From Sinosporangium siamense (GTDB taxonomy: Bacteria > Actinomycetota > Actinomycetes > Streptosporangiales > Streptosporangiaceae): a stretch of 64,000 nucleotides of DNA. The translations under genes and the position numbers were made by a program. The stretch lies in the NCBI RefSeq assembly GCF_016863435.1, contig NZ_BOOW01000057.1, forward strand, positions 1 through 64,000, read 5' to 3'. Shown one piece after another: positions 24,907 through 39,635 of the stretch. The notes under the pieces were generated by a model. It saw only the letters and a program-made list of their open reading frames with translations. It did no database searches and had not been told where the DNA came from. Within the stretch, counting starts at the first letter, position 1, and each line of letters starts with the position of its first letter.

Positions 24907-25203
24907 AGCTCTGTGCTGCTCGCCGGCCCCGGCGAAAGGTTCGTGGTCAGCTTCGAACGGCCCCCCTGACCTGCACTGACGCAATCGCGTGTGCCTGACT
25001 GCAGCACTGCTAGCCGTCTGTCGATCGCGTCTCGGATTCGCGCTGCGCGATCGACCCGGTCGGCCTCCGCGCGACCAAGGGTGTGGCGAGCTTCCTGCCT
25101 GTGGGGCGGGTTCGCCTTCTCAGCGCCAAGGTGGAGGTTGTCCCCCTCTTCGCCCTTCCGCGATTCGGTGAACCTTGGCGTGGTTCTGCGGATCGAAGAA
25201 GAC
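24907..25203 (+). other. Intergenic region before the DUF817 gene
   Basis: No gene is supported in either strand. It contains the divergent regulatory region for TetR (right to left) and the leader of the DUF817 gene; CGATCGC-type short palindromes around 25020-25060 are seen but not interpreted. A GTG-initiated in-frame extension (from about 25168) would add residues NLGVVLRIEED to the DUF817 protein. Confidence 0.35.
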
Positions 25204-26031
25204 ATGAGGTTCTTTGTCGTGCAGATGTTCCGTTTCACGTGGGCAGAGCTGAAATCGTGCGCGTTCGCGGTTGCCCTGTTTGTGGGGCTTGCCGTTTCGT
25301 CGATCCTGCCGTTGCCGATCCCGCGCTATGACGCGCTGCTGGTGTTCGCGGTGGCGGTGACGGTGGTCTTTCGTGTCCTGCGGTGGGAGAGCAGCCAGGA
25401 GACAGTTGTCATCGCCGGGTTTCATCTGGTCGGTCTGGCCTTTGAGATGATCAAGGTGCGGCTCGGGTCCTGGAGCTATCCCGAAGACGCCTACACCAAG
25501 TTCGGCGGGGTGCCGCTGTACAGCGGATTCCTCTACGCAGCGGTGGGCAGCTACGTATGCGCGGCCTGGCGGATCTTCTCGCTGCGCCTGGTGGCCTACC
25601 GGACGGTGCCGGTGACCTGCCTGGCGGTGGCGATCTACGCCAACTTCGTCAGCCAGCACTGGTGGATCGACCTGCGGCTCCCGTTGGCCGTCGCGCTGGT
25701 CCTGGCCACGTGGGGGACGGTGGTGCACTTCACCGTGGGCGAGCATCGCTACCAGATGCCATTGGCACTGTCGCTCACACTCATCGGGTTCTTCCTGTGG
25801 GTGGCGGAGAACATCGCCACCTACCTCGGCGCCTGGGAGTATCCCCACCAGAGGGAGACCTGGCAGCTGGTCCATGCCAGCAAGGTCGGGTCCTGGGCGC
25901 TGCTGGTCAGCGTCACGTTTGTGATCGTCGCTTCCTGGCAGGCGCGCCGGGGACGGCTCCACCTGACCGGTGCCCGGTCGCGTCCCCGCGGGTGGGCACT
26001 GCCTGTGCGCCGCGTCCCCGCCGATGGATGA
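25204..26031 (+). CDS. DUF817 family integral membrane protein
   Basis: A 275-aa protein with about eight membrane segments, starting at ATG 25204 (GAAGAAG upstream). Conserved features are FEMIKVRLGSWSYPE, FGGVPLYSGFLYAAVGSYVC and the late FFLWVAENIATYLGAWEYP followed by VHASKVGSWALL, which I associate with the DUF817 family. These proteins have no established function; the conserved acidic and His residues in and between helices could bind metal or lipid. It precedes the two-component genes by 96 bp on the same strand, so co-transcription is possible but not shown. Confidence 0.78.
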   Translation: MRFFVVQMFRFTWAELKSCAFAVALFVGLAVSSILPLPIPRYDALLVFAVAVTVVFRVLRWESSQETVVIAGFHLVGLAFEMIKVRLGSWSYPEDAYTKFGGVPLYSGFLYAAVGSYVCAAWRIFSLRLVAYRTVPVTCLAVAIYANFVSQHWWIDLRLPLAVALVLATWGTVVHFTVGEHRYQMPLALSLTLIGFFLWVAENIATYLGAWEYPHQRETWQLVHASKVGSWALLVSVTFVIVASWQARRGRLHLTGARSRPRGWALPVRRVPADG

Positions 26032-26127
26032 GCGTTTGGTGCGGTCTTCTCGGGCCTGCGCGCTTCCCGCGATCCGCGTCCGCTTTCTTTCGCTCCCGCT
26101 TATGCCTGTCCGCCTATAAACCCTGTC

Positions 26128-26829
26128 ATGGACAAATGCCCTCCCCCGTGTGTGCTGGTCGTCGATGACGAGCCGAGCATTCGTGAGCTGCTGTCGGAGG
26201 CCTTGACCCTGAACGGCTTCGGCGTGCGGACCGCCTCCTGCGGGCGTGCGGCGCTGGAGGAGATCGAGCGGGCGCAGCCTGACATCGTCGTCCTTGACGT
26301 GATGTTGCCTGACATCGATGGCTTCTCGGTGGCACGGAGGCTGCGTGAGGTGCCAGGCAACCCGCCAGTGCTCTTCCTGACCGCGAAGGGCACGGTGGGG
26401 GATCGTATCGCCGGCCTTACCGCGGGGGGCGACGACTACGTCACCAAGCCCTTCAGCCTGGAGGAGGTGGTGTTGCGGCTGCGGGCGATCCTGCGGCGCA
26501 TGAGGCCGCCGGAGGAGCAGGTCGACGACGGGGTGGTGCGTTATGCGGACCTGGAGCTGGATGAGCAGGCTCATGCCGTACGGCGGGCGGGGAGGCCGAT
26601 TCATCTGTCCCCGACGGAGTTCGCGCTGCTGCGCTATCTGATGATCAACTCTGGGTGTGTGGTCAGCAAGGCGCAGATCCTGGAGCGTGTGTGGGACCAC
26701 GGATTCGACTGCGACAGCCGGATCGTCGAGTCCTACATCAGCTATCTCCGGCGCAAGATCGACACCCATGGTCCGCCGCTGATTCACACCTTGCGTGGCG
26801 TCGGCTATCGCCTGTCCCTGCCGTCGTGA
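26128..26829 (+). CDS. OmpR/PhoB-family response regulator
   Basis: A 233-aa regulator. The receiver domain (about 8-120) has the acidic pair VVDDEPSIRELL, the phospho-acceptor Asp in VVLDVMLPDIDG, the Thr in LFLTAKG and the Lys in DYVTKPFSLEE. The C-terminal winged helix (about 140-230) contains LSPTEFALLRYLMINSG and ends SYISYLRRKIDTHGPPLIHT with GVGYRL. It is followed, with a one-base overlap, by its histidine kinase. CCTATAAACC near 26115-26123 may be its -10 region. Its targets may include the VTC operon immediately downstream. Confidence 0.95.
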   Translation: MDKCPPPCVLVVDDEPSIRELLSEALTLNGFGVRTASCGRAALEEIERAQPDIVVLDVMLPDIDGFSVARRLREVPGNPPVLFLTAKGTVGDRIAGLTAGGDDYVTKPFSLEEVVLRLRAILRRMRPPEEQVDDGVVRYADLELDEQAHAVRRAGRPIHLSPTEFALLRYLMINSGCVVSKAQILERVWDHGFDCDSRIVESYISYLRRKIDTHGPPLIHTLRGVGYRLSLPS

Positions 26830-28241
26830 TGCGGGCCGGTCGTCCTTGGCCGTTGCGGCTGCGGTTGCTCGCGGCACTGCTGGGCCTGTGCGCGCTGGGG
26901 TTGACGGTCTTTGCCGTGTCCGGCGTGGTGGTGCTGGAGCGGTCGTTGCTTAAGCGGGTGGATGTCCAGCTTCGCGAATTCGCCGCGACGGTCGGCCGGC
27001 GTCCGCCGCCCACGGCGCAGCTCAGGCCCCCGGCGAATCTGGAGTTGCCGAGTCAGTTCCAGGTCGCCTTTTACTCCGCCTCCGGCGACCTGGTGCGTCA
27101 GCTGGCCTCGGCGCCCTTCGACGGGCCCGCCATCGGCGCCGAGACCGTCTCCACTGCGCCGCGTCGGCCGTTCACCACGGCAGGCCGGGTAGGTGAGCAG
27201 GATTGGCGGGTTTTGGTGGAGGATCTCCCGAACGGTGATCGGGTGGCCGTGTCGATGTCGCTGGGGGCCAATCAGGCGACTGTGCGGCAGTTGCTGGTCA
27301 TTCAGGTGGTCACCGGCGTCGTGGTGTTGACGCTGCTCGGCGCGCTGGCCTGGGTGGTGGTGCGAATCGGGCTCCGCCCGCTCACCAGGATGGAGAGTAC
27401 GGCGGAGGCCATCGCGGCCGGGGACATCGACCGCCGGGTGGCGGACGCCGATCCGCGCACCGAGATCGGGCACCTCGGGCGGGCGCTGAACACGATGCTG
27501 GAGCGCCTGGCCACTGCTCTGCGCGCCCGGGAGCAATCCGAAGGGCGGCTGCGGCATTTCGTCGCCGACGCCTCCCACGAGCTGCGCACCCCGCTGACGT
27601 CGATCCGGGGCTTCGCCGAGTTGTACCACCACGGGCAGGAGGCCCGCGATCCGATGGCCGAGCGGCTGCTCGGCCGGATCGAGAACGAGGCCGGGCGCAT
27701 GGGTGTACTCGTTGAGGACATGCTGCTGCTGGCGCAACTTGACCGGGAGCCGATGCTGGAGCACAGCACAGTCGACCTGCGGGTGCTGGCGGGTGACGTG
27801 GTGCACGCCGCGCGTGCCCGCGACCCCGGACGGACGATCAAGCTTGAGGTTCCGGCCGACTCGGTGTTCGTGCTCGGTGACGAGCACCGCCTGCACCAGG
27901 TGATCGCCAACCTGGTCGGCAACGCCATCACGCACACCGCCGGCGGCACGCCCATACATGTCAAGGTCGCACATGAGCCGTTAGGGGCGGGCGGGACGGC
28001 TGTCGTGCAGGTGCACGACGAGGGTGTGGGCATCGACCCCGGGCATCTGCCGTACGTCTTCGACCGTTTTTACCGGGCGGATCCCAGCCGTTCGCGTGCT
28101 CACGGCGGCACGGGCCTGGGGCTGGCCATCGCCGCCGCTCTGGTGGAGGCGCATGGGGGCCGGATCGAGGTGGCGAGCGTCGCCGGCCGGGGGACGACGT
28201 TCCGGGTCCTGCTGCCCTCGCACCGGCCGTCGGACGGCTGA
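26829..28241 (+). CDS. Sensor histidine kinase
   Basis: A 470-aa membrane kinase whose ATG 26829 overlaps the response-regulator stop. Membrane spans at about residues 11-35 and 158-182 flank an extracellular sensor of about 120 residues. HAMP follows (RPLTRMESTAEAIAAGDIDR), then the phospho-His box FVADASHELRTPLTSIRGFA and ATP-binding motifs: N box HQVIANLVGNAITHT, G1 DEGVGIDPGHLPYVFDRFYR and G2 GGTGLGLAIAAALVEAHGG. All catalytic elements are present. The sensor has no recognisable domain. Paired with the upstream regulator. Confidence 0.95.
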   Translation: MRAGRPWPLRLRLLAALLGLCALGLTVFAVSGVVVLERSLLKRVDVQLREFAATVGRRPPPTAQLRPPANLELPSQFQVAFYSASGDLVRQLASAPFDGPAIGAETVSTAPRRPFTTAGRVGEQDWRVLVEDLPNGDRVAVSMSLGANQATVRQLLVIQVVTGVVVLTLLGALAWVVVRIGLRPLTRMESTAEAIAAGDIDRRVADADPRTEIGHLGRALNTMLERLATALRAREQSEGRLRHFVADASHELRTPLTSIRGFAELYHHGQEARDPMAERLLGRIENEAGRMGVLVEDMLLLAQLDREPMLEHSTVDLRVLAGDVVHAARARDPGRTIKLEVPADSVFVLGDEHRLHQVIANLVGNAITHTAGGTPIHVKVAHEPLGAGGTAVVQVHDEGVGIDPGHLPYVFDRFYRADPSRSRAHGGTGLGLAIAAALVEAHGGRIEVASVAGRGTTFRVLLPSHRPSDG

Positions 28242-28252
28242 GCCCGCTTGTC

Positions 28253-28285
28253 GTTCACCTTTGGTTCACACATTGTTCCCAGCTT
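28253..28285 (+). promoter_or_regulatory. PHO-box-like triple 11-nt direct repeat before the VTC operon
   Basis: Three consecutive 11-nt units begin with GTTC: GTTCACCTTTG (28253-28263), GTTCACACATT (28264-28274) and GTTCCCAGCTT (28275-28285). In Streptomyces, PhoP binds direct-repeat units of 11 nt with consensus close to GTTCACC. The block lies between the kinase stop and the VTC gene, 37 bp before ATG 28322, the right place for an activator or promoter-overlapping site. OmpR-type regulators other than PhoP use the same layout, so the neighbouring regulator is an alternative binder. Confidence 0.65.
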
Positions 28286-28321
28286 TGTGCTGTCGGATGT
28301 GCGCAACATTAAAGGAGGGGC

Positions 28322-29248
28322 ATGCTGCAACGATTTCGCAGGAAGTCCATCTTCGGACGTCAGAGCGCCGAGACGACCGCTACCGCGACCACGGCGACAC
28401 CGGCGGTGGACGGCGACGCGGGTCACCGGTTGCGCGCACCGAGCAAGCTGCACGCCTTCAACCGCTACGAGATCAAATATCTGATCGACGCCGAGCGGGT
28501 GGACGAGTTGCGCGAGGAGGTGGAACAGCGCCTCGAACGCGACCGGTATTGCCCGGAAGAGGGCTACAAAATCTGGAGCGTCTACTACGACACCCGGCAA
28601 CTCCGCTTCTACTGGGAAAAGATCGAAGGGCTAAAGTTCCGCCGCAAACTGCGCATCCGCCACTACGGTGACCGGTTCGCCGCCACCGATGAGACGCCGG
28701 TCTTCGTCGAGATCAAGCAGCGGGTCAACCGGGTCACCCAGAAGCGCCGGGTGCGCCTGCCCTACGCCGACGCGCTGCGCCTGTGCGACGGGCGGCAGAT
28801 GGTCGAGCACGAGCCGGGCGGGCGGGCCTTCCTGGAGGAGGTCCTCGACCTTGTGTCCCGGTTGGAGCTGCACGCCACCGCGATGACCGGTTACACCCGC
28901 CACGCCTATGTGGGGCGTGATGCCGATGTCGGGCTGCGCGTCACCTTTGACCGGCGCGTCCGCGGGCGCGACCGCGACTTTCACTTCAGCGCCGACGCCG
29001 AGAACAGGCTCATCGTCCCGGTACACAAAGCGATCATGGAGGTGAAGGCCAACGAGCGGGTGCCCTACTGGTTCACGGATCTGGCCGCCGCCAGGGATCT
29101 GCGGGTGGTACGGGTGTCCAAGTACTGCCAGAGCGTGGAGGCCTATGGGCTGGCACCACGTTCGATCTTCCATCTTCCCGATCTGCCCGACCTTTCCGAC
29201 GACCACTCCCTCGGCGCCGTCCGGCCGCCCGTGCGTATGGAGGCCTGA
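28322..29248 (+). CDS. VTC-domain polyphosphate polymerase-type protein
   Basis: A 308-aa cytoplasmic protein, ATG 28322 behind AAAGGAGGGG. From residue 38 it follows the VTC4-like tunnel fold: HAFNRYEIKYLID, SVYYDTRQLRFYWEKIEGLK, FRRKLRIRHYG, FVEIKQRVNRVTQKRRV, and MTGYTRHAYVG; the last strand carries IMEVKANERVPYWF, with the catalytic Glu and basic residues lining the tunnel. Eukaryotic VTC4 makes polyphosphate from ATP, and bacterial relatives are annotated as polyphosphate polymerase domain proteins. It is followed after 5 bp by DUF4956 and then CotH, a recurrent bacterial trio. A PHO-like box upstream fits a phosphate-linked role. Confidence 0.88.
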   Translation: MLQRFRRKSIFGRQSAETTATATTATPAVDGDAGHRLRAPSKLHAFNRYEIKYLIDAERVDELREEVEQRLERDRYCPEEGYKIWSVYYDTRQLRFYWEKIEGLKFRRKLRIRHYGDRFAATDETPVFVEIKQRVNRVTQKRRVRLPYADALRLCDGRQMVEHEPGGRAFLEEVLDLVSRLELHATAMTGYTRHAYVGRDADVGLRVTFDRRVRGRDRDFHFSADAENRLIVPVHKAIMEVKANERVPYWFTDLAAARDLRVVRVSKYCQSVEAYGLAPRSIFHLPDLPDLSDDHSLGAVRPPVRMEA

Positions 29249-29253
29249 CCCAT

Positions 29254-29931
29254 ATGGACTTCTCCTTCCAGGACCTGTCGGGCACGTTCAGCGTGGCCGA
29301 CATCGCCATCGCCATGGCGTTGTCCTTCGTGCTGAGCGCGATGATCGGCTGGGTCTACCGGGCGACGCACCGCAACGTCTCCTACAGCCAGTCCTACGTG
29401 CAGACGCTGGTCATCCTCGGAATGCTCATCTCGCTGATCATGCTTGTGGTCGGCTCGAACATCGCCCGCGCGTTCGCCCTGGTCGGCGCGTTGTCGGTGG
29501 TCCGCTTCCGCAACGCCATCAAGGAGACCCGCGACGTCGGGTTCGTCTTCCTGGTGATGGGCGTCGGCATGGCCGTCGGCACGCGGTTCTATCTGCTGGC
29601 CGTGGTCGCTGCCGTGACCATTTCGCTGATCATCATGATCATGCACCGGTTCAACTGGTTCCAGCTCAATGTGCGCCGCCAGGTGGTCAAGGTGCAGGTG
29701 CCTTCGGATGAGGACTTCACCCAAGCCATCCAGGACGTGCTGGTACGGCACACCGACGAGTTCGAGCTGGTCAGCATGGAGTCCATCCGGGCCGGCGCGC
29801 TCATGGAGCTGATGTACACCGTGAAGATCAAGAAGGGGCACGAACCGGCGGACGTGATCGCCGCGCTGCGCGAGCGCAATCACGGCCAGTCGGTCACGGT
29901 GCTCACCGGATACGACCAGACCGACCTCTGA
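29254..29931 (+). CDS. DUF4956 membrane protein
   Basis: A 225-aa protein with about four membrane segments in residues 10-125 (ADIAIAMALSFVLSAMIGWV, LVILGMLISLIMLVVGSNIA, GFVFLVMGVGMAVGT and a fourth) and a soluble C-terminal alpha/beta domain of about 90 residues (VKVQVPSDEDFTQAIQDVL). The loop SNIARAFALVGALSVVRFRN followed by IKETRDVGFVF is the most conserved DUF4956 signature. The family is regularly encoded beside VTC-type polymerases and probably forms the membrane partner, perhaps a channel for polyphosphate; this is inference. Confidence 0.88.
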   Translation: MDFSFQDLSGTFSVADIAIAMALSFVLSAMIGWVYRATHRNVSYSQSYVQTLVILGMLISLIMLVVGSNIARAFALVGALSVVRFRNAIKETRDVGFVFLVMGVGMAVGTRFYLLAVVAAVTISLIIMIMHRFNWFQLNVRRQVVKVQVPSDEDFTQAIQDVLVRHTDEFELVSMESIRAGALMELMYTVKIKKGHEPADVIAALRERNHGQSVTVLTGYDQTDL

Positions 29932-29937
29932 CCGGCC

Positions 29938-31620
29938 ATGGCGCGACTAAAGCACCGTATCCCGGTCTCACTCCGGCAGAACTGGAAGCTGGTCGCCGCG
30001 TGTGGGGCGTTCCTCGCAGTCTGCGTGCTGGTCTTCGGCAGCGGCACAATACGTCCGTATGTCACCAGCGTCCGCAGTGCCTCCGGCAACACGGTCGTCA
30101 CCGACCTGACCGGCGGCAAGGATCTGTTCACCGCCTCGACCCCCCACGAGGTGAAGCTCACGTTCACCGACGAGGCGTACGAGGACATGCTGACCGAGTA
30201 CTTCAAGTCGGGGGAGAAGAACTACGTCGAAGCCGACCTCGTCATCGACGGCACCACGATCCCGAGCGTGGGCGTCCGGCTGAAAGGCAATTCCACGCTG
30301 ATGGGGCTGACCTGGAAAGGCCAGTCTCGTGCGCGGGAGCGGGGCGGGCCGGGTGGTGGTCCAGGGGGCGGCCGGCCGCCTGAGGGCTTCGAACCACCTG
30401 AAGGTATGCCGAACCCCCCCGAGGGCATGGCCCCTCCGGACGGCATGCAGCCGCCGCAGAATCTTGCGGGCGCCGGGGGTGGGCAAGGCCGTGATCCCGG
30501 CGCGGGTTTCGGGGGGCTTAGCCGTACGCCGCTCAAAGCCGAGGAACCGGAGAACCTGCCCTGGCTGATCAGCTTCGACGAATTCGTGGAGGGCCGCCGC
30601 TACCAGGGACACAGCCAGATCGCCGTACGGCCGTCCTCGATGGGGTCGGCGACGCTGCTCAAGGAGTCGCTGGCGATTTCCATGGTCGGCGCGTCCGGTG
30701 AGCCGTCCCAGGGTTACGCCTACAGTTCCTTCTCGGTCAACGGCCGCTCTTCGGCGCCGCGACTGCTGGTGGAGTATCTCGACGAGGGGTACGCCGAAAG
30801 GCTCGGTGCCGGTGTGCTCTACAAGTCCTTGGCCTCCTCCACCTTCTCCTACAAAGGCGAGGACCAGACCGCGTACACCGCCGATTTCAAGCAGGTCAAC
30901 CGTAAGGGCGAGCAGGATCTTCAGCCGGTGATCGACCTGATCAAGTGGGTGGAACAGTCCTCGGACGAGGAATTCGCCGCCGGTCTGGCGTCCAGAGTGG
31001 ACGTGGAGTCCTTCGCCCGCTATCTCGCGTTGCAGAACATGCTGCTGAACTTCGATGACATGGCGGGGCCGGGGCGCAACTACTACCTGTGGTACGACCT
31101 TGGCACCAAGAGATTCAAAGTGATCAACTGGGATCTCAACCTCGCCTTCGGCGGCAATGCGAGCGCGGGGCCGGACGATTCCATCGGCATGGGGGGCTTT
31201 AGAGGCGGAGCCGAAGGCGACCGCCGGCCTCGGGCTGAGGCTCAAGGTGAGAACCAGGGCCAGGGGCAGAACCCCAGTCCGAGTCCGAGCGCGAGTCAGA
31301 CCCCCGGCCAGGGTCAGGCTCGTCAGCCCGGTCAGGGGGGCGGCGGTGGTGGCATGCGAATGGGGCACGTCCTGAAGGAGCGCTTCCTGAAGACCCCCGC
31401 CTTCAAAGAGATCTACCGGCAGCAATACCAGAAGTTGTATCAAGACCTTCTGGTCACCGGTAAGGCAGGCACCCTTCTGGATCAGGCGACCGCGTCCTAT
31501 CGGTCTATCCAGGGCGCCGACGCCGAGGAAGCGCAGAAGGAGCTCACTTCTCTGCGCACCACGCTCACGACCCGCACCGAGGTCCTGGGCAAGGCATTCG
31601 CCGAGAATGGCGCGGGCTGA
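29938..31620 (+). CDS. CotH-family secreted/membrane-anchored protein kinase-like protein
   Basis: A 560-aa protein with an N-terminal membrane anchor (about residues 16-38) and an extracellular CotH domain. Recognisable blocks are SVGVRLKGNSTLMGL and LALQNMLLNFDDMAGPGRNY with YYLWYDLGTKRFKVINWDLN, the CotH nucleotide/metal site (W-D-L-N in place of the usual D-x-D). Two disordered inserts break the domain: Gly/Pro/Met-rich PPEGM repeats (about residues 137-190) and a Gly/Gln/Ser/Pro stretch (about 420-475). CotH proteins are atypical extracellular kinases first known from spore coats. Six bp after DUF4956, so same operon; start ATG 29938. Confidence 0.85.
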   Translation: MARLKHRIPVSLRQNWKLVAACGAFLAVCVLVFGSGTIRPYVTSVRSASGNTVVTDLTGGKDLFTASTPHEVKLTFTDEAYEDMLTEYFKSGEKNYVEADLVIDGTTIPSVGVRLKGNSTLMGLTWKGQSRARERGGPGGGPGGGRPPEGFEPPEGMPNPPEGMAPPDGMQPPQNLAGAGGGQGRDPGAGFGGLSRTPLKAEEPENLPWLISFDEFVEGRRYQGHSQIAVRPSSMGSATLLKESLAISMVGASGEPSQGYAYSSFSVNGRSSAPRLLVEYLDEGYAERLGAGVLYKSLASSTFSYKGEDQTAYTADFKQVNRKGEQDLQPVIDLIKWVEQSSDEEFAAGLASRVDVESFARYLALQNMLLNFDDMAGPGRNYYLWYDLGTKRFKVINWDLNLAFGGNASAGPDDSIGMGGFRGGAEGDRRPRAEAQGENQGQGQNPSPSPSASQTPGQGQARQPGQGGGGGGMRMGHVLKERFLKTPAFKEIYRQQYQKLYQDLLVTGKAGTLLDQATASYRSIQGADAEEAQKELTSLRTTLTTRTEVLGKAFAENGAG

Positions 31621-37530: not shown

Positions 37531-39543
37531 TCAGGAACCGATCTTTCCGCCGCGGCTGTGCCAGGCGACGGCGACCGACGGGCGGGGCTGGTCGCCGTCG
37601 GGCCAGCGGCTGGCGGGCTTGTCGGGGGTGGCGCCGTCGATCTCGCCGGGGTGCTGCACGGCGACGAAGACGCTGCGCTGGTCGTTGGTGATCAGCGGGC
37701 CGCAGGTCTCGGCGCCGAGGGGGACGGTGAGGAACTGGCGGACATAGCCGCGTTCCCTGCCGCGAACGGGCATGACGAACAGGCCGTCGTTGGTGCCGAG
37801 GGCGTTGCCGTCGGTGGAGATCCACAGGTTGCCGTCGCGGTCGAAGGCGAGGTTGTCGGGGCAGGAGATCGGCGAGACCTTGGTCTTGTCGTAACCCGCG
37901 AAGTAGGTCGTGGGGTCGTTGGGGTCGCCGCAGACGAGCGGGAGGGACCAGGCGAAACGGGTGCCGCGGTCTTCGACGATCTCCAGGATGTGGCCGTGCT
38001 TGTTCGACGGGCGCGGGTTGGCCTCGTCCACCTGTGCGGCGGTCCGGTTGGAGTTGTTGGTGAGGGCCACGTAGACGGCGCCGGTGACGGGGTTGGGCTC
38101 GACGTCCTCGGGGCGGTCCATCTTGGTGGCGCCGACCTTGTCGGCGGCGGTGCGGGTGAAGATGAGAACTTCGGCGGCGCTCATGCCCGGCACGTGCGAC
38201 TTCTCACCGCTGACCAGCGGAATCCACTCGCCGCTGCCGTCGAACGCGCCGTCCTTGGGCAGTTTGCCGGATCCGTCGATCTCCTCCTTGGGGCTGTCGC
38301 CGGTGAACTTGGCGACGTAAAGGGTGCCTTCGTCGAGGAGAGTGCGGTTGTGCCGGTCGTGGCCCTGGATGTAGCGGTTCTTGGAGACGAACCGGTAGAT
38401 GTACTCGAAGCGCGAGTCGTCACCCATGTAGACCACCAGGTGGCCGTCGTTGGAGATCGACGTGGTGGCGGCCTCGTGCTTGAAGCGGCCGAGCGCGGTG
38501 CGCTTGATCGGCGTGCTCTCGGGGTCGAACGGGTCGATCTCCACCATCCACCCGAACCGGTTGACCTCGTTGGGGTGCTTGGCGAGGTCGAAACGCTCCT
38601 CGACCTTGTCGAAGCGGCGGCTCCCGCTCGGCACGCCGGTCGGGATGCCATACCTCGCGGTGTTCGGGTTGGCCGCGCTGCCGTTGATGAAGTATTGGTC
38701 GAAGTTCTCTTCAGCGGTGAGTACGGTGCCCCACGGCGTGGTGCCGCCTCCGCAGTTGTTCAGCATGCCAACCGGTTTGCGGCCTTCGGGGTCGGCCGCC
38801 GTCTTGAGCAGATCGTGGCCGGCTGCCGGACCGGTGAAGCGCATGGGCGTCTTGGCGGTGATGCGACGGTTGTAGCGGCGGCGTCCCTTGGTGACGAGTT
38901 TCCACTCGCCGCCGCCGCGGACCCGCTCGATCTCGACGACCGAGCCGCCGTGCGCCTCTAGGGCGATCTTGATCTGCTCTTCGGTGGGGTTGGCCGCCGA
39001 GTAACCGCGGAACATGAGCACTTCGTCGGTGTATTCGTGGTTCACCCAGAGCAGGCCCTTGTTCCGGCCCCGCTCGAACAGCGTGACGTAGTCGCAGTTA
39101 TAGCCGAACTGCTTGGCCTGCGCCTCCGCCGTCTGGTTGTCGAAGTCGAACGCGGGCGCGTCGGGCAGCACCGGGTCGCCCCACCGCACCACGACGCTCG
39201 TCTGGTAGCCGTCCGGGACCTTGACGATGTCTTCTCTGTTCGGCGGCACCGGGCTGAACCGCAGGTCGCCGCCCCCGTGCCCCGCGGGCTCGGTCGCCTC
39301 CGGATCGACGGCGGCTGCGGCAGGCGCGGCCCCTGCCGCGCCGGCGGCGCCGACGACGAGCGCGCCCAGCGCGCCGGCGCGTAGCACTCCGCGCCTGGAC
39401 AGGGCTTTGGCGGCGATCTCGCCGAAGTAGGCGTTCTCGCTCCGGTTGGCTACGTCGTTCGCACATGCGTTGCCGCATCGGAACCGGCACGTCAGCGCGG
39501 AACGGCCGCCCTTGTGCGGGTCGGAGAGCAGGGGCAGCGGCAC
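37531..39543 (-). CDS. phoX: PhoX-family alkaline phosphatase
   Basis: A 670-aa secreted phosphatase. Near residue 50 it has a twin-arginine signal (LSRRGVLRAGALGALVVGAA) with cleavage after AAPAAAA; the preceding leader LTCRFRCGNACAN is typical of actinobacterial PhoX. Characteristic blocks are GLLWVNHEYTDEVLMFRG, LNNCGGGTTPWGTVLTAEEN, GWMVEIDPFDPES, KHEAATTSISNDGHLVVYMG and CGDPNDPTTYFAGYDK, which supply the iron/calcium-binding acidic residues and Cys. PhoX hydrolyses phosphate esters outside the cell during phosphate starvation; a PHO-like repeat sits upstream. Start is ATG 39543 behind GGAGGAAG. Monocistronic. Confidence 0.93.
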   Translation of the reverse strand: MPLPLLSDPHKGGRSALTCRFRCGNACANDVANRSENAYFGEIAAKALSRRGVLRAGALGALVVGAAGAAGAAPAAAAVDPEATEPAGHGGGDLRFSPVPPNREDIVKVPDGYQTSVVVRWGDPVLPDAPAFDFDNQTAEAQAKQFGYNCDYVTLFERGRNKGLLWVNHEYTDEVLMFRGYSAANPTEEQIKIALEAHGGSVVEIERVRGGGEWKLVTKGRRRYNRRITAKTPMRFTGPAAGHDLLKTAADPEGRKPVGMLNNCGGGTTPWGTVLTAEENFDQYFINGSAANPNTARYGIPTGVPSGSRRFDKVEERFDLAKHPNEVNRFGWMVEIDPFDPESTPIKRTALGRFKHEAATTSISNDGHLVVYMGDDSRFEYIYRFVSKNRYIQGHDRHNRTLLDEGTLYVAKFTGDSPKEEIDGSGKLPKDGAFDGSGEWIPLVSGEKSHVPGMSAAEVLIFTRTAADKVGATKMDRPEDVEPNPVTGAVYVALTNNSNRTAAQVDEANPRPSNKHGHILEIVEDRGTRFAWSLPLVCGDPNDPTTYFAGYDKTKVSPISCPDNLAFDRDGNLWISTDGNALGTNDGLFVMPVRGRERGYVRQFLTVPLGAETCGPLITNDQRSVFVAVQHPGEIDGATPDKPASRWPDGDQPRPSVAVAWHSRGGKIGS

Positions 39544-39602: not shown

Positions 39603-39635
39603 CGTGGATGAACGACCTTCACCCCCTCGATGAAC
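39603..39635 (-). promoter_or_regulatory. PHO-box-like 11-nt repeats upstream of phoX
   Basis: On the minus strand three 11-nt units run GTTCATCGAGG (39635-39625), GGGTGAAGGTC (39624-39614) and GTTCATCCACG (39613-39603). Units one and three match the PhoP direct-repeat consensus closely, the middle one poorly. The block lies 60-92 bp upstream of the phoX start, where PhoP activates in Streptomyces. Confidence 0.6.

Follow-up and report, generated by a model that had tools for sequence, protein, structure and literature searches.

Tandem 11-nt repeats before an actinomycete VTC operon: a probable operator of the adjacent PhoP-like response regulator

The repeat array and the genes around it

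Analysis of the window, that is, the whole 64,000-nt stretch of Sinosporangium siamense DNA, indicates that the three contiguous repeats at 28253–28285 most likely serve as the binding site of the adjacent two-component response regulator, rather than of the phosphate-starvation PhoP proposed by a first-pass annotation. Comparison of promoters and regulators makes it quite probable that these repeats are the operator by which the adjacent regulator controls the VTC-DUF4956-CotH operon. This regulator is preferred because the promoters of the response regulator genes share the operator, because the genes are linked, and because they occur together across genomes. The features concerned are the following.

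26080–26127, + strand: promoter region of the response regulator gene, in which a TATAAA -10 is preceded by a degenerate form of the operator (poor matrix score, p 0.30)
26128–26829, + strand: OmpR-family response regulator, the predicted binder, of the sister group to Mycobacterium tuberculosis PhoP
26829–28241, + strand: cognate histidine kinase (HAMP, HisKA, HATPase_c), whose likely ATG overlaps the stop codon of the regulator gene
28253–28263, + strand: unit 1 of the probable operator, GTTCACCTTTG, PHO-like; in relatives mostly one unit farther upstream
28264–28274, + strand: unit 2, GTTCACACATT, first half of the conserved core
28275–28285, + strand: unit 3, GTTCCCAGCTT, second half of the conserved core, in the place of a -35
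28286–28292, + strand: 7-nt spacer, constant in length, that separates the core from the -10
28293–28298, + strand: predicted weak -10, TCGGAT (TCAGAT in most relatives), 7 nt after unit 3
28311–28318, + strand: ribosome-binding site AAAGGAGG before the VTC gene, as read from the sequence
28322–29248, + strand: VTC-domain protein, putative polyphosphate polymerase (Pfam PF09359, 159.5 bits)
29254–29931, + strand: DUF4956 protein
29938–31620, + strand: CotH-kinase-like protein

The array reads GTTCACCTTTG-GTTCACACATT-GTTCCCAGCTT, three abutting 11-nt units located after the stop of the histidine kinase gene (28241) and ahead of the VTC start codon (28322). Three GTTCMC units at 11-nt spacing occur once without mismatch in the window and, when up to three mismatches are allowed, two overlapping matches are found for 0.39 expected from shuffles. 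The three-unit array is thus real, exceeds chance and is present exactly as first described. The pair GTTCAYN5RTTCAY has three copies in the whole 8.86-Mb genome, one in the VTC array, one upstream of pstS and one within a coding region. A core-like site with one mismatch at C18:332891, at the end of a coding sequence, was judged a chance occurrence.

We propose that the phosphorylated regulator would bind head to tail on units 1–3, each providing a 7-bp motif followed by a 4-bp spacer, as a tandem oligomer; unit 3 would substitute for the -35, and the regulator would recruit RNA polymerase to the weak hexamer TCGGAT, which is likely the -10 of the VTC promoter. Binding by this regulator, activation rather than repression, and dependence on phosphorylation are what we infer.

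The operon product is probably a polyphosphate-type polymer, given the score of the VTC domain and a weak but consistent profile match of the protein to yeast Vtc4 (3g3q, E 0.00047). Each of the 80 compared loci, all having a close VTC gene, carries matches to VTC, DUF4956 and CotH together. The same three gene types are noted beside Gram-positive Pel clusters in the source consulted (PMC7112168), whereas the VTC operon described here is tied to a two-component system. The gene directly preceding that of the response regulator (25066–26031, + strand) encodes a DUF817 protein.

Conservation of the operator in relatives

The window and 35 of the compared loci form a set of 36 promoters of Streptosporangiaceae type. 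With small variations, the core GTTCACACATT-RTTCCCAGSTT is found in 35 of them, the sole exception being L029, and it is followed after exactly 7 nt by a hexamer that is mostly TCAGAT. An additional GTTCA unit is present upstream of the core in 28 of the 35 core-bearing promoters and was not seen in the other seven. It lies 22 nt upstream in 25 cases, 33 nt in one, 21 nt in one and 11 nt in the window, so that 27 of the 28 units keep a multiple of 11 nt. Three contiguous units are therefore a feature of the window genome, the first unit usually lying 22 nt upstream in relatives, and the preserved phase indicates that the window shows a local version of a larger array. Within the VTC promoters of Micromonosporaceae the letters drift and the tandem 11-nt units stay, five units being discernible by eye in L087. 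At four loci (L015, L016, L025 and L057) only a few bases separate the predicted -10 from the start codon of VTC, a proximity which suggests that these VTC messages may be leaderless.

The same layout before the response regulator genes

A matrix built on the VTC core (L029 being excluded from its training and counted in the tests) recognizes 11 of 32 response regulator promoters when the cutoff is p<0.01 and 16 when it is p<0.05; of the 24 pstS promoters, 3 pass p<0.01. The reverse comparison started from the 32 regulator promoters alone: from random seeds, a motif of two YTCNCA units 11 nt apart was obtained, followed after 7 nt by TAGAAC, with a total of 958 against 344–383 in eight shuffled sets, figures that give no clean probability since these promoters are mutually related. 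The resulting matrix picks the same VTC core in the same register, reaching p<0.05 in 35 of the 37 VTC promoters and p<0.01 in 25; L029 and L086, which it misses at p<0.05, belong to genomes without a close copy of the adjacent regulator. On the pstS promoters it finds none of 24 at p<0.01 and three at p<0.05. In the window, two weak units fit in front of the TATAAA of the regulator gene. As the gene has the same layout in many relatives, the adjacent regulator is probably autoregulated.

For the Micromonosporaceae, a first motif run on 29 regulator promoters converged on conserved coding sequence; a second run used the final 165 nt of 26 of them (L088, L130 and L142 dropped). About 21 of these 26 show by eye TCNNAGG-N4-TCNNAGG at the same distance from the -10, and the layout was not seen by eye at L131, L139–L141 and L143. 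These units are nearer to TCACAGC, the repeat of M. tuberculosis PhoP, than are those of the window.

Linkage and co-occurrence of regulator and VTC genes

Among 341 genomes of the family, a close regulator (340 bits or more) is present in 41 and a VTC gene in 57. Both occur in 39 genomes, the regulator alone in 2 (G190 and G333), VTC alone in 18 and neither in 282 (Fisher 7e-35, a test that, like the shuffle tests, ignores the kinship of genomes). High-identity VTC genes without a close regulator are those of G016, G329 and G354; G016 (L039) and G354 retain the array, and none was found in G329. The 15 genomes with a lower-identity VTC gene were examined separately from this count: in 11 of them a regulator of 58–63% identity is encoded no more than about 9 kb from VTC and on the other strand, and residue 212 is Arg in all six of the regulators that could be read.

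Regulator and VTC genes lie within 12 kb of each other in 31 of the 39 genomes having both. Eight genomes were scored as unlinked, one of which (G181) reflects a contig break, the end of the histidine kinase gene being visible on its contig, that of L028; in the remaining seven, all unlinked, the core is retained without exception. The orientation of the regulator relative to VTC varies (upstream, downstream or convergent). Of the 80 loci, 28 have it upstream of VTC and 5 have it downstream; in the others it was not seen within the compared stretch. The divergent regulator of the Catellatospora and Virgisporangium loci was rejected as the same protein, with 43–45% identity and a position near PrrA in the tree. 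The PrrA-like two-component system of Catellatospora, Hamadaea and Virgisporangium (L047, L056, L071, L076 and L082) reads away from VTC, and its promoter is rich in CTAAGAA repeats.

Two proteins named PhoP

Two distinct proteins go by the name PhoP, the RegX3-type phosphate PhoP and the M. tuberculosis PhoP type. The phosphate PhoP of Streptomyces is RegX3-like and thus of the type of the regulator encoded beside phoU in the window genome (contig C22), which joins RegX3 in our tree with a support of 100/96. The closest solved relative of the adjacent regulator is M. tuberculosis PhoP (260 bits versus 160 for RegX3). In the tree, 58 VTC-associated regulators group beside M. tuberculosis PhoP (61-row group, support 98/91), and this cluster stands apart from RegX3 and PrrA. 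By its sequence, the adjacent regulator therefore belongs to a sister group of M. tuberculosis PhoP and is not its ortholog. Two more regulators like M. tuberculosis PhoP, about 4.5 kb apart, are encoded on contig C31 (62268–67451) of the window genome; they are 58–60% identical to the window regulator and are nearest to M. tuberculosis PhoP in the tree.

The published crystal structure of M. tuberculosis PhoP with DNA (PMC4832192) describes the protein as a dimer in tandem arrangement, bound to 7-bp repeats whose spacer is strictly 4 bp long; the units of the window, exactly 11 nt apart, have the same spacing. The base-reading residues named there include Asn212, Glu215, Ser216, Tyr217 and Tyr220, the last four of which are retained in the window regulator. 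The likeness to M. tuberculosis PhoP (Rv0757) thus comprises the OmpR family, most of the base-reading residues, the spacing of the TCACAGC-N4-TCACAGC repeats given in the two sources (PMC4832192, PMC4038636), and an operator at the promoter of the regulator itself, seen here in relatives. On the other hand, helix 8 differs by Asn212 to Arg and Val213 to Ile. All 58 VTC-associated regulators in the tree have Arg at position 212, the two PhoP-like paralogs encoded in the window genome have Gly, and RegX3 and the phoU-side regulator have Lys. Moreover, the corresponding letters of the core units here are TCACACA and TCCCAGC, and the target is a VTC operon.

Phosphate control and other readings of the repeats

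The first-pass annotation had read the three units as matching the layout of Streptomyces PhoP repeats, placing the putative polymerase under phosphate control. What holds of this reading is a tandem direct repeat of OmpR/PhoB-family type before the VTC operon, and a likeness to the PHO box of Streptomyces PhoP and mycobacterial RegX3 in the 11-nt repeats starting with GTTCAC, unit 1 being GTTCACC in all seven letters. Indeed, considering the letters of the window alone, its units 1, 2 and 3 share 7, 6 and 5 of 7 letters with GTTCACC (18/21) and 4, 5 and 6 with TCACAGC (15/21), the PHO consensus fitting better. In the same genomes, a pair of RTTCAY units at 11-nt distance, mostly of the form GTTCACC-N4-GTTCACC, occurs in 23 of 24 pstS promoters; in the window genome the box is GTTCACCCTGT-GTTCACCTTGA. 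A PHO matrix was trained on these promoters (L183, where no GTTCA unit was found, being excluded from training and counted in the tests). In the softened form used for the window, it gives the first pair 14.7 bits (p about 0.0007 per 225-nt window), which bears out the resemblance to PhoP direct repeats for that pair; it also reaches p<0.01 in 16 of the 37 VTC promoters, and a phoX gene with GTTCATC units 22 nt apart lies about 11 kb away. Nevertheless, we consider it improbable that the operon is induced in phosphate limitation by a RegX3-type phosphate PhoP bound to the three units. The matches in VTC promoters come mostly through unit 1 and its unconserved flank, whereas relatives keep units 2 and 3, whose letters 5–7 are unlike GTTCACC: a PHO box as such was not found conserved before the orthologous VTC operons, the conserved core being GTTCACACATTRTTCCCAG, and the pstS boxes of the same genomes are distinct from it. 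At the regulator promoters the PHO matrix matches none of 32 at p<0.01 and two at p<0.05, and the distribution of the operon tracks the adjacent regulator. The phosphate PhoP is furthermore another protein, encoded beside phoU, with another recognition helix. As the main binder it is therefore disfavoured.

A division of labour, with the adjacent regulator on the core and the phosphate PhoP or another factor on unit 1 adding the phosphate state to the main signal, appears possible though rather doubtful. Unit 1, which reads GTTCAYCTYY in many relatives, is similar to the second unit of pstS boxes, so that the phosphate PhoP may make an additional contribution, and the upstream GTTCA unit is the one retained in 28 of the 35 core-bearing promoters. 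As the first pair of the window is a moderate PHO box, cross-binding by that protein is also possible. PHO boxes, however, are pairs of units, yet most relatives have a degenerate unit beside unit 1, and a GTTCACC unit also precedes a response regulator gene (L078), so that the unit may belong to the same regulator. It is highly improbable that an unrelated reader of GTTCAC repeats is at work, such as the DevR-type PolR of Microlunatus phosphovorus, which according to the source (PMC6754071) reads GTTCACnnnnnGTTCaC and governs genes for polyphosphate when oxygen conditions shift; the published consensus and the polyphosphate theme are the same, but such a factor leaves the linkage to an OmpR-type regulator, the co-occurrence and the operator at the regulator promoters unexplained. 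Control by the adjacent regulator, which we favour, has points against it as well: its own promoter in the window matches the VTC matrix poorly (p 0.30), this matrix reaches only 11 of the 32 regulator promoters at p<0.01, arrays are kept in two genomes without a close regulator, the window letters fit GTTCACC better, and the VTC-associated regulators have as a group a support of only 91/89.

Scope of the putative regulon

The kind of mechanism is already known, and the well conserved operator is real. In the literature searched, by titles and abstract openings, neither a description of the control of bacterial VTC-type polymerases nor this pair of regulator and target was found. We hold as evenly balanced the wider proposal of a regulon spread widely among actinomycetes: a PhoP-like system with Arg at position 212 would be devoted to the VTC-DUF4956-CotH operon and to its own gene, a polyphosphate-type polymer answering a signal other than phosphate starvation. 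If control by the adjacent regulator is right, the polymer would be separated from the phosphate-starvation response and tied to a PhoPR-like system, with operator, regulator and promoter all named and directly testable. The distinction would also remove a natural misreading, as two different regulators are both named PhoP.

The phoX gene of the window (37531–39543, - strand) encodes an alkaline phosphatase of the PhoX type (PF05787, 567 bits). The two GTTCATC units upstream of it, at 39603–39635, lie exactly 22 nt apart and are a candidate for a true PHO box.
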